Below are positions 17,644 through 24,858 of a stretch of 64,000 nucleotides of DNA, in pieces; position 1 is the first letter of the stretch; each line of letters starts with the position of its first letter. The DNA comes from Syncephalastrum monosporum B8922 (lineage: Eukaryota; Mucoromycota; Mucoromycetes; Mucorales; Syncephalastraceae). A program made the position numbers and the translations under genes. The notes under the pieces are model-generated. The model did not search any database, had not been told where the DNA came from, and saw only the letters and a program-made list of their open reading frames with translations. The DNA lies in assembly GCA_000697355.1 (NCBI GenBank), contig JNEN01001166.1, positions 1 to 64,000 of the forward strand, given 5' to 3'.

Positions 17644-20524
17644 TGCTATAGATACGTGAGTCAAACAAGAGATTGACGGTGGGATGGAGTTGTTTGCCAT
17701 TGCTTACGAGTATTTCTTTGATTAGTTCGGTCAGACGATCCACTTGAGTCCTGATCACGAGAATTCCTAGAGAATCCAAACAGATTGGACAAGAAGTGCT
17801 TCAAAGGCAGCATGAACAAATGCAGAGAAAGAGTAAAGCACTGACCAACACGGCCCGCAGCAGTATTTCTTCGCACAATTTACACACCCCGCATGACCTT
17901 GTGTTACCCCACCCAAGACGCTGTATATTCTGCTTTTGGTCTTGAATGACACTGGTACTTACCTCACTTGAGCAACTGGGCTTCTCATTCTCTACTTTGT
18001 CTGCATACATGCATACAAACATCTTAAAGGTAATGGCCATACTTGTTTCTCTATATGTACGTAAAGAACTGTGCAACCGACATGATTTATGCAAAAGTAA
18101 CTTGACTCTCAACACCCGGGAGCACGAGGTCCTTGTGAGCTATGCAAAGGAAACTGATGGTTATTTATGTCTCTGATAGCATGTTAGACTTTAACACTAG
18201 CAAAAACAAAGAAAAAGAGAGCCTTAAAGTGCTTCAGCGCGCCATTGACTTGTGGAGTGAGCAGCCAACTTCCTTTTATGGCATCACTTGTTGACAAGGG
18301 CAACACAGACGCACGTTTTCTAGGATACAGCTGATATTTACGGTGACGGCAAAAACAAGCAGCTCTTGTCTCATGGCGCCCAAACCCAAACGTGGACAAG
18401 GTCTTCTTTTGCATTATTTTACCTTTAAGCGCAACGCATCTGGTAAATTCCTGGCCCCAAACAGCAAATTCAAGTATGGGTTTAGATTGTGAGAGAACAT
18501 CTTGAAGCGTTTCGATATCGACATGATCGACTTGTACTAAGAGCATTATCTGAAATTTACTACATAAGTTCTTCTAGTCCCATCTAAGAGACAGTGAAAA
18601 CCATGGCCGGTTTATAAGGCAAAGTACGCTATCGTTTAGTCTTGTATGGCGCTGCATCATCTTGCGTGCCCAAGTTCGAAAGAATGCAATATGTTGCGGT
18701 CAATGAAATGGATCTCTGAAAGTGATTAAGGTGAGGCGACATAGTATGAAGGTCATAAGATCTGGGCAAGTGAAGGTACTTTGGACATTTTTTGTAACTG
18801 GCTATACAGTATATCTCGCACTCCACACAGGTGACGAATCTTGGCTATTCCAAACGAAGTTTCCGTCGTCCTGCTATTGTGTCATACACCGCACTATTTC
18901 TGTTTTCGGAGCCTATAGGGCAATGATTATCTTGCTCGCTATCGATCCTTTTTCGACTGGCATGGGCGAGAAGACTAATAATTTTTTTCTCTCGAATTTG
19001 CAAGTGCCATTCAACGAGATATAGAGAAGGCAGATATATTTTTTTCACGCCTGACATCACTTCCGCAGGACACATACGACATCAATATCAATTTCATAAG
19101 GACTATTTAATGACATACATGTACTGTAGACATACGAGTTGGGCATGTAATATATTACCCATTACGCACGTGTTACAGAGGCGATCACCCCTTGATATAT
19201 GCTCTGTTATTCGTCCCTTGCCTCATCTCTCCGTTGTCGCTTTCATTGTCTCTGCGACGCAAAAAACAGTGTGTTAATTAAAGTAAGTAACAATAATGTC
19301 TATGATACCACCCAAGCACGCGTTATATAAACTTCCATGTGTTTCATATATGCTGTAATACAATCAAAATGGTGATTTGCCCACCAAAATGGCCACTATG
19401 AAGAGCAAACGACAATAGTATATATTTTTCGTGCACAGGAAACAATATTCCTCTGATCAAAACAGGCAAACATTTGATAAGCAATGAGAAATTCAGTTTT
19501 GCGTCTGCAAAAGCGAACGCGGCTAAATAAGTGATGACGAAATCGTTCTTCCAACTCTTTCCTCAACGTTACTCTACCCGTGTGTGGCTTTAAGATCGTC
19601 TAATAGGTCGCTGCTTTGAAAACCTTCTTCCATGATTATCATCGCGATGCTTACCTCTCTTTCAACTGCCTGAGCCATGAGCATTTCTGCGGATGGTTTT
19701 GCTAGCAAAGATAATATAATACAATTTATGCTACAAGCGCCGCGCGCGCGTTACTGCCGCCTCGCCAATGAGTATGTTTCGCGTTGCATAATGCCTGGGC
19801 TACTGACACCGACTACGTTAACATATATGGCCTTTTGCTCGTCCAGACACCTTAGGCAACGTCCAAGCGAATTTATGTGCAACGCTGACATTTACTGATA
19901 GCGGAGAAATGAGGTGAGAAGCGTTTTGTAAGGCACCCTTTTGGTCAGCGCAATACCAGACGGTGTATTTGCCAAATTTGGAGCCACTCGAGACTCAACT
20001 CATAAAACAAGTACTGCCTTGTTCCAGGAGCAACTCTGGAAAGCAAGAAGGCCCTTGTTCTTCACGACGGCCTCAGTGTCGTCCTTGTGAATGTTGCTAC
20101 GGATAGCTGCCGTTTTGGGTGCTACTGTCCATCATGGGAAACCAATGTCTGTTACTTGAGCCTTATGGTGCTGGTGGTAAGAGCTGCCCACGTACCCAGG
20201 TCAGGATAGAAAGAAGGAATAAAAAATAGCACCCACCTTATTAGAAAAAGGGGGTTGTTCGTAAAGCCGGACGGACGCATCAATCTTGCACGCACACATG
20301 AACCGTGCGCTCCCAAGGTTATTATTGATCATTCCCGTTACTCTTCAGAGGCTTGCAACAAACACACTGCACCCTATCACTCATACGTTACTTTTACTGC
20401 TTATCTCCAGATAGCTTGTTCCCAGAAAACAAACAACGCCAAGAGACTGCGTGTGCTTGTTTCAGTCTCCTCTCCCGCTTCCATATTTCACAAGTCGGGA
20501 TTTTGTATGCCCATTCACAGTGTT
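17644..20524. other. Gene-poor stretch
   Basis: About 2.9 kb. Just right of the RNase H gene, minus-strand exon-like pieces flanked by GT/AG occur, including RLTELIKEIL (about 17700-17770) and a cysteine-rich GCVNCAKKYCCGPCW (about 17840-17890); they could be 5' exons or another gene. A 120-aa minus-strand frame at 18184-18546 is listed separately. The rest is AT-rich with no recognisable gene. Confidence 0.4.
18184..18546 (-). CDS. Hypothetical ORF of 120 aa, doubtful
   Basis: ATG-started frame beginning MLLVQVDHVDIETLQDVLSQ. The first 40 residues look like an ordinary soluble protein (alternating hydrophobic and charged, helix-like), while the rest is basic and cysteine-containing and ends in a phenylalanine-rich tail. 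No domain recognised. It might be one exon of a longer gene or chance. Confidence 0.2.
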   Translation of the reverse strand: MLLVQVDHVDIETLQDVLSQSKPILEFAVWGQEFTRCVALKGKIMQKKTLSTFGFGRHETRAACFCRHRKYQLYPRKRASVLPLSTSDAIKGSWLLTPQVNGALKHFKALFFFVFASVKV

Positions 20525-21943
20525 ATGCAGACGGACGACCATGACCAGAAGAAAACAGGCAGCATCGCACTGCCTATAAATGACGACACGGCCGAATCCT
20601 CGCGCTCGACGTCGACGCACTATTTCGACACGGCAGACACTACGTACGGTCGAGGCCATGTCCGCCATTGTCTGCATCGCGCCCGGCCGTATCTTCTCGG
20701 CCTCTCGGTGCGAGTCGCTGGGCTCATTGCCATCGTCGGCGTGCTGATTGGAATTGGGCTCGGGCTGCGCTACACCGAAGGGCTGCCGAGAAGCGAGGAC
20801 GATTCCAGCCTCGTGTTCGACTGGCACGTCGACCCCGCCTCGTATCTTGTGCCTTTCAACCAATCCTTCCAGTACAACGTGTTGCTGGACGGGCACGCCC
20901 ATTCCACTTACAGCGACGGCCGCATGAACGTTCGGCAGCTTTTGGAATGGCATATCGGTCAGTCTAGCTATGCCGCTCAATGCAGCGCTTCTTTTGGTTT
21001 TACTTACCACCGGGAAATATCTTGTAGCCAATGGATATAACGCCGTCATTGTCACGCAAGTATAAAATTAGAAGGTTATGTCAAAAGGGGTTAGCTCACT
21101 GTTTTGTTTCCTTTTCTTTTGCATGACTGCAGCGACCACAACACCATCCAAGGCGGTCTCGCGGCAGAAAAGCTCGCATTAGAAGAATATGCAGGCAACA
21201 TTACTGTGATCCCCGGCATTGAATATTCATGCTGTCGCATCCACATGAACCTGATTGATATCAACGAGTCTATCCCCATCGGACCCCCCGAACCCACCGA
21301 TCAAGAGCTGCAGCAGGTCATTCGGCGTGTCCATGAGCTCGGTGGCCTCGTTATTGTCAATCATATCCCATGGAGCAATACAACCGAAGACGGCTATGAT
21401 CTTCCGCGTCTGCCGAATCACCCGTCCGTAGAGGATCTGATTGCGTGGGGTGTTGACGGCTTTGAAGTCGTGCACGCCGACACATTTGATTATGCTACGT
21501 ACCTCGCCACGGGCAAACACAATCTCATTCAAATGGTCGGCACCGATGTCCACTACCCCGCGACGCCCGCCACGGCGTGGCTGGCTGTCCAGGCCGAGAC
21601 TACGACACGGGCGGGCATCATGCAGGCCATTCGAGCCCGCCGCACCTCGTTCATGGCCGATCCGGCTGGGACCCGCCAGCGCGTCTATCCACCATCGCCT
21701 GCGGCCTACGACAGACTTCTGCCTCTGACCGGCCTGGGATCTTACTTCTCCATGTTCTATACCGAATCCAAGGGTATGTACAGTTTCCAGGGCACCTTTT
21801 GCCAGCCTCAGCGCATGCAGGTGCATGGCAATATCATTGGCTGGTTTATTTTCTGGTGTATCGTCGGCCTGGGTGCCTACGAACTCGTTCGTGCCTTTGT
21901 TCGGTGGGTGACTCACCGGTTGCGGCTGCGTCTTTCCGTATGA
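20525..21943 (+). CDS. Membrane-anchored PHP-domain phosphoesterase
   Basis: Three exons (20525-20957, 21028-21055, 21133-21943) give 423 residues. A cytoplasmic N-terminus is followed by a transmembrane segment (SVRVAGLIAIVGVLIGIGLG), then a PHP metal-dependent phosphoesterase domain: DGHAHSTYSDG (the HxH metal site), IVTDHNTI, PGIEYS, IVNHIPW and MVGTDVH. A second hydrophobic segment (IIGWFIFWCIVGLGAYELV) lies near the C-terminus. The catalytic domain would therefore face the lumen or outside. Known PHP domains hydrolyse phosphate esters using two or three metal ions; the substrate here is unknown. Intron 2 is GC-AG (GCAAGT at 21056) and exon 2 is only 28 nt. An in-frame ATG at 20507 would add six residues. 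The C-terminus is basic (RWVTHRLRLRLSV). Confidence 0.85.
20958..21027 (+). other. Intron 1 of the PHP gene
   Basis: GT..AG intron of 70 nt after WHI. It restores the reading WHIANGYNAVIVTDHN across the 28-nt exon, which matches the PHP family. Confidence 0.85.
21056..21132 (+). other. GC-AG intron in the PHP gene
   Basis: The donor is GCAAGT at 21056 and the acceptor is CTGCAG ending at 21132. Only this splice restores the family motif VTDHNTI; the nearest GT donors break frame. The extended complement to U1 snRNA at positions +3 to +6 is what GC donors usually show. Confidence 0.85.
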
Positions 21944-22604: not shown

Positions 22605-23132
22605 ATGGCAGGACAGGAACATACGTCATGGTCCTTTACCACCGTCGGCATGGCGCTGCTCGCCTCGTCATGCTGTGTGATTCAACTCGTCCTCAACATG
22701 CTTTCCATCTCGTGCGCTGGGTTTGCGGTGTTGACTCCCTACCGACCGTGGTTCACACTGGCAACGCTGGCGACGTTTACGCTGGCCTGGCAACGACAGA
22801 AATATAATAAGGATCGGCGGGTGCTATTTTGGACGGCCTGTGTCGCGGCCGTTCTTTTGGCGAGTCCAGAGCTTGTGCGGTACATGAATGAAAGCACTAG
22901 CACTCCTGATATTAGCCCGCCCATTGTGCTCCGGCTCGACGGCCTGGGCTGCCTGGCGTGTGCGAACAAGATAAAGCAGGGCCTGATGCAGGTGCCGGGC
23001 GTGGCAGAGGCGCTCGTGTTCTTTGACAATAGCACAGCGCTCGTAAAGTGCAACACACCATGTGCCGTGCCAGAATTGGTCAAGACCGTCGAAGGGTTGG
23101 GTTCGTACCGCGCGTGGGTTGTCTCAAAATGA
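22605..23132 (+). CDS. MerT-like membrane protein fused to an HMA (MerP-like) domain
   Basis: A single-exon gene of 175 aa. Residues about 14-95 form three hydrophobic segments that follow bacterial mercuric transporter MerT: the vicinal pair Cys23-Cys24 inside TM1 (LLASSCCVIQLVL), the loop signature TPYRPWF after TM1, and DRRVLFWTACVAAVLLASPEL matching MerT TM3. The MerT cytoplasmic loop with its second cysteine pair is missing. Residues about 106-175 form a heavy-metal-associated domain with LGCLACANKIKQGLMQVPGV (metal-site Cys116 and Cys119), as in MerP. In bacteria MerP passes Hg(II) to MerT for import. By inference this protein moves a soft metal ion (Hg, Cu or similar) across a membrane. 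The absence of introns, unlike nearly every neighbour, is compatible with transfer from bacteria. No merA or merB gene is nearby. Confidence 0.78.
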   Translation: MAGQEHTSWSFTTVGMALLASSCCVIQLVLNMLSISCAGFAVLTPYRPWFTLATLATFTLAWQRQKYNKDRRVLFWTACVAAVLLASPELVRYMNESTSTPDISPPIVLRLDGLGCLACANKIKQGLMQVPGVAEALVFFDNSTALVKCNTPCAVPELVKTVEGLGSYRAWVVSK

Positions 23133-23431: not shown

Positions 23432-24858
23432 ATGACCCAACCGGCCACCATTGCTGCCATCATGCTCGCCGCAGGTCTTGCCGATGCCTCGCCCGCATGG
23501 GTGCCCGTCAAGCGCGCAGCCGAGTCGAGCAGCGAGCCTGCAAAAGAAAGCCATGACTCTTCGTCGTCGAACAGTAAAGGTAATCCATATTTTTCTCTGC
23601 CATTCATTCAGGGCATGAGTGAATCACTATCGTCATAGCAATAAATTATATTGAAACTAAATCCCGCCCATTCATGTAATCCCCAAAATGAACTGCAGAC
23701 GCGCCCAAGTTCAGCAATGCAGCGCCCACGCAATCCGCGAGCAGCAGCAAATCATCCGATGCGCCCAAAGATAATAAGAGCAGTGCTCCCAAAAGTGAAA
23801 AGCCCACCTCAACCAAGAAAGCTGCCGAGTCTACCAAAAAGTCCTCGCCCACCTCGACCGCAGATAAAAACGCCAAAACGTCCGCACCCGCTGCTGCATC
23901 GACCGACGCCTCCGCCTCGTCCACGCCTTCCATGTCCTTCAACGGTATCACCTCGGTCAGCAGCGGTCAGCCCAACAGCGCCGATACCAGCGCCTCGCCC
24001 TCCTCCTCCGCGAGCGCAGACGCGTCGTCGTCCGGCCCCTCCGGAGGCGCCGTGGCAGGTATCGTGATTGCCGTGATCGCCGTAGTGGGCGCCGTTGCGG
24101 CCTTCTTTGTCATCCGCCGCAAACGGGCGGCCGAGACACGACGACGCATGAATCAAAAGCCAGATCCATTCACCATGGGCTTTGGCAGCCACGATCCGCC
24201 GCGACACGACTTCCCACCGCCGCATACGGCCTACATGGCCAACACGGCCCCGCAGCCCATGATCCAGTTACCGCCTATTGGCGCCTCGGCGCCCACACCT
24301 ACCCCGCCTGCACCTGCGCCTGCTGCGATGGCGGGTGGCATGGCAGCGGGTGCGGCCATGGGTGCGTCTGCTTATGCGTACAGCGACTACCACGATCCTA
24401 CGCCCTCGCCTGGACCTGCTGCCATGTCCTCGACGGCCCCACCTGCCCCTATGACCACGCCTGCCCCCACCCAGACCACTACGGCGGCGGCTCCCGCCGT
24501 CGTCGCTACCCCACCGCCAGCGCCCTCTGCCGAAGCAGCGTCCTCCCACTCGCTCGGTATCTTCCACGTCATTTCTACGTACACACCCACCCTCAGCGAC
24601 GAACTGGATATTCAGCCCGGTGATCAGGTCGAAGTACTCGTCGAGTATGATGACGGCTGGTGCCAGGGCATCAACTTGTCGCGCGGCAACCAGAAGGGCG
24701 TGTTCCCCAAGCATTGCGTCGACGCTAACCCATCCAGTGGCCAGCAGCAGCCACAACAGCAGCAACAATTGGGTAATGGAGGCGAAGCAGAAAGAACTAA
24801 GCGTGTCAGCTCGATGCTGATGCAGCAGCAGCAGCAGCAGGGTCCATACTACCTGTAA
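23432..24858 (+). CDS. Single-pass membrane protein with a cytoplasmic SH3 domain
   Basis: Two exons (23432-23579, 23699-24858) give 435 aa. A signal peptide (IAAIMLAAGLADASPAW) is followed by a Ser/Thr/Lys/Ala-rich, probably O-glycosylated outer segment, then one transmembrane helix (GGAVAGIVIAVIAVVGAVAAFFV) with the basic stop-transfer RRKRAAETRRR. The cytoplasmic part is proline-rich and contains an SH3 domain near the C-terminus (GIFHVISTYTPTLSDELDIQ, then DGWCQGINLSRGNQKGVFP). The tail ends in polyglutamine runs. The plan is that of fungal cell-surface sensors and cell-fusion proteins such as Fus1 or Sho1-like SH3 proteins. A role in cell-wall or mating/polarity signalling is an inference. 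Confidence 0.85.

Follow-up and report, generated by a model that had tools for sequence, protein, structure and literature searches.

The window analyzed here is a 64,000-nucleotide stretch of Syncephalastrum monosporum DNA, and it encodes at 22605..23132 (forward strand, as are all features of this gene) the protein P0001, in which a MerT-like membrane domain is followed by a heavy-metal-associated (HMA) domain. The gene is a complete single ORF of 175 aa. Its closest proteins, 175 and 178 aa long, are a metagenome protein at 98% identity and, as the nearest named one, a protein of Syncephalastrum racemosum at 87%. Because these two relatives support the ORF, the gene looks real and intronless, in keeping with the original prediction, made from the letters of this DNA, of an intronless 175-aa gene. 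With the fungal protein as query, the 27.5-Mb assembly yields no other full match, a second match covering residues 88-166 alone (E = 1.2e-3), and scanning the genome with the Pfam MerT model returns the place at 22605-23132 only. A reading as chance or artefact is ruled out by the Pfam cut-offs, the column shuffles, and the occurrence in many genera. Bacterial contamination of the assembly is ruled out as well, the closest named proteins being from S. racemosum and other Mucorales.

AlphaFold2 predicts helices in the product at residues 11-32, 37-65, and 71-96. The first, TM1 (22635..22700), is modeled with low local confidence (pLDDT about 60) and contains Ser22-Cys23-Cys24, Gln27, Leu28, and Asn31. 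Helix 2 starts in a conserved segment running from Cys37-Ala-Gly-Phe to Thr-Pro-Tyr-Arg-Pro (residues 37-48; 22713..22748), of which the PYRP at 45-48 is common to bacterial MerT. The TM2-TM3 loop region (residues 61-74; 22785..22826) is positively charged and is without the cysteine pair of MerT. TM3 (residues 71-96; 22815..22892) is a predicted helix whose end is Ser-Pro-Glu...Asn95, and it takes part in a TM2-TM3 profile match to MerT. The HMA domain (residues 108-166; 22926..23102) has its CxxC as Cys116-Leu-Ala-Cys119 and scores 34.9 bits against PF00403, above the cut-off of 24.8, which places it in that family; the predicted structure is a ferredoxin-like fold with pLDDT about 90. The Cys-Cys at 23-24, the YRP loop (within PYRP), and the CLAC at 116-119 in a C-terminal HMA domain are all where they had been predicted, the HMA assignment now resting on a profile search. 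Three further conserved residues, Gln27, Asn31, and Cys37, had gone unmentioned. A structure search with the first structure model matched the HMA part to Cu-ATPase domains and to MerP, with the likeness to Cu-ATPase domains at least equal to that to MerP. All 50 of the matches listed fall in residues 98-175, so that other parts are barely tested by that search; by sequence, with one MerT as query, no solved relative of MerT was found.

Upstream, at 20255-21943 on the forward strand, lies what is apparently one membrane protein split by an intron, neither ORF of which has a Pfam match. Its histidine-bearing stretches DGHAHSTYSDGR and GTDVHYP recall a PHP-type phosphoesterase. The downstream neighbor, 23932-24858 on the same strand, combines an SH3 domain (43.9 bits) with a serine-rich stretch and, judged by eye, a membrane segment, and is perhaps a cell-surface stress protein. 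Four neighboring ORFs were scanned without finding a mer gene, the one Pfam match being to SH3 domains. In the genome as a whole, the MerA model TIGR02053 gives 8 pieces, none over cut-off, with a best score of 205.4 of 454.45 bits under exon-wise scoring, which lowers scores. The neighbor scan and the MerA result fit the prediction that there would be no mer operon; a MerB search gave no match in its own controls and carries no weight here. The Ctr copper transporter has 5 profile matches over cut-off on two contigs, three pieces close together at C150:79364-81298 and two at C91:98412-98887.

MerT is a bacterial mercury-resistance protein, and the N-terminal half of the fungal protein is homologous to it over three helices. 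Pfam MerT (PF02411) matches residues 13-64 with 35.7 bits against a cut-off of 32.9. In a profile comparison by hhalign, 33 eukaryotic N-terminal regions from a collection of 147 proteins were set against 17 non-redundant bacterial MerTs drawn from 104 ORFs in fetched loci. The alignment has probability 98.3 and E = 1.8e-14 over 86 columns and all three helices, with a score of 80.9, where the bacterial profile with its columns shuffled 200 times reached 24.3 at best. Taken separately, the TM1-PYRP segment reaches 50.7. The TM2-TM3 segment by itself reaches 25.3, with 14.2 as the highest value after 200 such shuffles, so the predicted close likeness of the TM3 block to MerT is real, and it is weak when taken by itself. 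The MerT plan as a whole, for which a profile search of the N-terminal part had been proposed, is confirmed by significant Pfam and profile-profile matches. By tblastn against plasmids, the fungal protein hits merT and merP lying next to each other in mer operons (best E = 2e-3 among the matches listed), and the sponge member finds annotated MerT genes (lowest E = 1e-3 among the matches listed). The Pfam model covers the eukaryotic branch in part, since a chytrid member, P0054, scores 20.8 bits, under the cut-off, and a scan of 30 diverse members, picked when the collection stood at 102 proteins, found MerT in 20 and HMA in 29 at E<=0.01.

The family is broad. A single-sequence search gave 36 family proteins from 325 candidates, and two profile searches gave at least 101 from 7999 and at least 49 from 7998 scored candidates. 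The organism-named members among the matches listed are all eukaryotic, and many others are metagenome proteins. Fungal members of the Mucoromycota type come from Mucorales, Umbelopsis, Endogone, Jimgerdemannia, Bifiguratus, Mortierella and relatives, Glomus, and Funneliformis, and chytrid members from Rhizophlyctis, Entophlyctis, Batrachochytrium, Physocladia, and Polychytrium. Outside the fungi there are the green algae Chlamydomonas (P0077), Volvox, Coccomyxa, and Scenedesmus, the liverwort Calypogeia fissa, the sponge Ephydatia muelleri, and Amoebophrya. Ascomycetes, basidiomycetes, vascular plants, and bilaterians are absent from the named organisms among the matches listed.

Residue conservation was read from an alignment of 89 of 147 proteins, a selection fixed before residues were inspected; the 58 omitted are for the most part fragments, near-duplicates, and proteins of long or tandem form, along with a few ordinary ones such as P0011, P0050, and P0077. 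Ser22, Cys23, Cys24, Gln27, Leu28, Asn31, Cys37, Gly39, Cys116, and Cys119 are kept in all 89, Arg47 in 85, and Asn95 in 76. Across the full 147, the pattern [SATC]SCCxxQLx[LM]N occurs in 137 proteins, and CCxxQLxxN with CAG downstream in 130; the misses that were inspected are mostly truncated proteins or ones in which Leu28 is replaced by Met, Ile, or Val, or Ala38 by Ser, Val, or Leu. A TM1-like Cys-Cys is present in 145 of the 147 (all except P0094 and P0102), making 157 sites with tandem copies counted, and there the Gln is found at every site, the Asn at 155 (Ser in two), and a downstream Cys-Ala/Val/Leu-Gly at 154. Because members were gathered by exact shared 5-residue words, this TM1 invariance is partly built in and so inflated.

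In the loop between TM2 and TM3, 3 out of 89 aligned members have any cysteine in segment 61-74; the cytoplasmic cysteine loop is absent from the fungal protein, as had been predicted. In the sponge protein P0092 this loop contains SPSCDVC at the site of the bacterial cytoplasmic pair, and two cysteines also occur there in the metagenome protein P0084. These may be an ancestral trait that was kept or one that was regained. In another variation, the unit is doubled to MerT-HMA-MerT-HMA in P0059, P0103, P0106, P0111, and P0112, which come from Amoebophrya and several protist-like sequences. The duplication looks old, because the five second copies form one clade (support 99/91 in a 70-row tree).

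As to what the protein does, we think it reasonably probable that it belongs to a branch of the MerT superfamily that is old and eukaryotic, with a three-helix metal-carrying membrane domain, an HMA domain, and a relay mechanism. Bacterial MerP loads MerT, and by analogy the fungal protein is most likely a soft-metal transporter whose extracytosolic HMA domain would load the membrane cysteines in the same way; transport itself, its metal, its direction, and its location we infer. Charge favors a topology with N-in/C-out and the HMA outside, since the N-terminus and TM2-TM3 loop carry more positive charge (family means of +1.61 and +2.48) than the other side (+0.94 and +0.70; 89 rows). N-glycosylation sequons past TM3 occur in 31 of 89 rows, compared with a mean of 20 and a maximum of 29 after shuffling, and being barely above that maximum they add little to the case for an outside HMA.

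The proposed sequence of events would have the protein sitting N-in/C-out in the plasma membrane or a membrane of the secretory pathway, where the CxxC of the HMA on the outer or luminal face would capture a soft metal ion, Hg(II), Cu(I), or Cd(II), and hand it to Cys23-Cys24 in TM1. Cys37, Gln27, and Asn31 probably help to shape the membrane site. The cytoplasmic cysteine pair of MerT is part of the bacterial metal relay. Because loop cysteines between TM2 and TM3 are usually missing in this family, the ion could exit toward the cytosol to thiols such as glutathione or metallothionein, which would take the place of the missing pair. That same absence counts against reading the protein as a MerT-like transporter, and so do the replacement of Pro by Gln, the lack of a MerA match over cut-off in the genome (as scored exon by exon), the 10 of 30 scanned members without a Pfam MerT match at E<=0.01, and the slightness of the sequon excess. 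Since the Pro that is conserved in MerT has been replaced by Gln, the membrane site may have another set of ligands and another role.

The main rival cargo is copper. The natural substrate would be copper or another physiological metal, with Cu(I) passing between the cytosol and the lumen of a compartment and any mercury handling incidental, which we regard as unlikely on present evidence. The resemblance of the HMA to Cu-ATPase domains speaks for it and is a likeness that cannot tell Cu(I) from Hg(II). The wide eukaryotic distribution suggests a housekeeping metal, and some of the metagenome members are named "copper chaperone CopZ". Against it, the genome already encodes Ctr, so a second copper importer at the plasma membrane could be redundant; a role in an organelle is unaffected by that argument.

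It is less probable again that the protein does not transport at all, and is a membrane-anchored metallochaperone or metal sensor for which the MerT fold provides an anchor and a binding site. In its favor, three helices would make a small carrier, a static site could be formed by polar Gln27 and Asn31 with Cys37, and tandem forms exist. Opposed to this, bacterial MerT, a protein of about the same size, is well established as a transporter of Hg(II), and the plan of the MerP-to-MerT relay is kept here in a single chain.

The question of origin was addressed with a 70-row, 102-column tree made of 53 eukaryotic rows (48 proteins, with tandem copies split) and 17 bacterial MerTs, all of the latter from Pseudomonadota. 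One branch with support 100/96 splits the eukaryotic from the bacterial rows. A eukaryote-only tree of 37 rows and 181 columns, in which long branches are present, joins nine rows from Mucorales, Umbelopsis, and Endogonales with support 95/85, a cluster that is absent from the 102-column tree and that leaves Bifiguratus outside. Fungal monophyly within the family is not recovered as a clade and is not rejected (AU p = 0.06). Our conclusion is that Mucoromycotina have long had this gene. The liverwort protein P0053, on a 34-Mb contig of Calypogeia fissa, clusters with Mortierella and Glomeromycotina and not with green algae (89/91 in the 37-row tree, 81/92 in the 70-row tree). It could have been passed from a fungal partner, though the AU test does not reject a single clade of Viridiplantae (p = 0.167).

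Bacterial relatives were also sought directly. Scanning genomes from 84,980 species of bacteria and archaea for [SAG]SSCC[VI]IQL, a pattern that probes Gln27 and neither Asn31 nor Cys37, gave 6 stretches and no confirmed relative. The tree includes no fused bacterial relative because none of 299 genomes drawn from the phylum to which a Paraburkholderia genome belongs has the curated MerTP fusion over cut-off. As for a viral carrier, an IMG/VR scan gave 26 stretches, none confirmed, nothing in BFVD matched at E<=0.001, and the idea was rejected.

The tree comparison proposed at the outset sets the family apart from the bacterial MerTs, as sampled in Pseudomonadota, and its link to MerT is significant by profile. 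A recent transfer of a MerTP gene from a bacterium to the fungus, to which the intronless ORF and the bacterial counterpart of the fusion (NF033556) might point, is very improbable given that chytrid, green algal, sponge, liverwort, and alveolate relatives have Gln27, Asn31, and Cys37 when 0 of 104 bacterial MerTs do, that the eukaryotic rows make up one side of the 100/96 branch, that the nine Mucorales, Umbelopsis, and Endogonales rows cluster in the longer alignment (and not the shorter), and that the bacterial and archaeal genome scan confirmed no relative. A recent transfer private to this fungus is excluded. Of the two explanations first offered, transfer from bacteria is not supported in the form of an acquisition private to this fungus, because the family occurs across fungi, algae, sponge, and alveolates and stands apart from the sampled bacterial MerTs; the other, an undescribed eukaryotic family, is supported. 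The deepest origin may be an ancient transfer from bacteria or early eukaryotic inheritance, the bacterial sample here being Pseudomonadota. More tentatively, and with doubt outweighing belief, we suggest a metal-transporter family dating from early eukaryotes, with its own Cys-Cys/Gln/Asn/third-Cys site and a fused capture domain, with a role in the normal handling of metals and not in resistance to mercury, and later lost in many lineages.

We found no description of a eukaryotic MerT-HMA family in the literature searched, a body of text that most subscription journals lie outside. The nearest mention is a table line for the green alga Chloroidium with a MerT Pfam hit at an i-Evalue of 0.0054 (PMC5509433). 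A paper on Cyanidiophyceae red algae reports merA and no merT, and says in passing, via a further reference, that such accessory proteins are typical of other eukaryotes and bacteria. Of two reviews, one from 2026 places PF02411 among prokaryotic selenoproteins, and one from 2025 on mercury-tolerant microbes covers mer genes and lists a MerTP-family protein of Actinomyces. Mucor hiemalis EH8 accumulates Hg intracellularly, and the same report states that a merT-like Hg transporter is not known in fungi (PMC5061714). A database protein named Mucor hiemalis with no strain given, P0032, is a member of the MerT-HMA family, which makes a candidate for Hg uptake in that species directly testable. 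A type of metal transporter that is best known from bacteria may be present in fungi, green algae, a sponge, and other eukaryotes; the Chlamydomonas member P0077 is a tractable model, and the altered membrane site lends itself to a natural comparison of metal choice among MerT-type proteins.

Among curated models, the best NCBIfam match of the fungal protein is to the bacterial MerTP fusion NF033556, which has the same order of MerT and then HMA (47.7 bits, E = 1.4e-12, far below the cut-off of 180). Since such fusions already form a curated NCBI family, the MerT-HMA fusion is not new as a plan. The MerT/CopZ fusion-like selenoprotein NF045683, with a MerT-like and a CopZ part by name, scores 34.4 bits, below its cut-off of 375, with its HMA part matching near the C-terminal end of the fungal protein; the fungal ORF has no in-frame stop as a possible selenocysteine. 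Compared with MerP and the HMA domains of Cu-ATPases, the fungal HMA differs in being covalently joined to a MerT-like membrane domain, and this fusion also sets the fungal protein apart from bacterial MerT. With bacterial MerT (PF02411) the fungal protein has in common the three helices, the vicinal Cys-Cys in TM1, the PYRP after TM1, and the TM3 block, whereas the cytoplasmic cysteine pair between TM2 and TM3 of the classical mer-operon MerT is missing. The two branches also differ at the membrane site: at the position of Gln27 all 104 bacterial MerTs have Pro, at that of Asn31 all 104 have Ile or Val, and at that of Cys37, by ungapped count from the Cys-Cys, they have Gly (94) or Ser (10), while the eukaryotic branch has Gln, Asn, and Cys.
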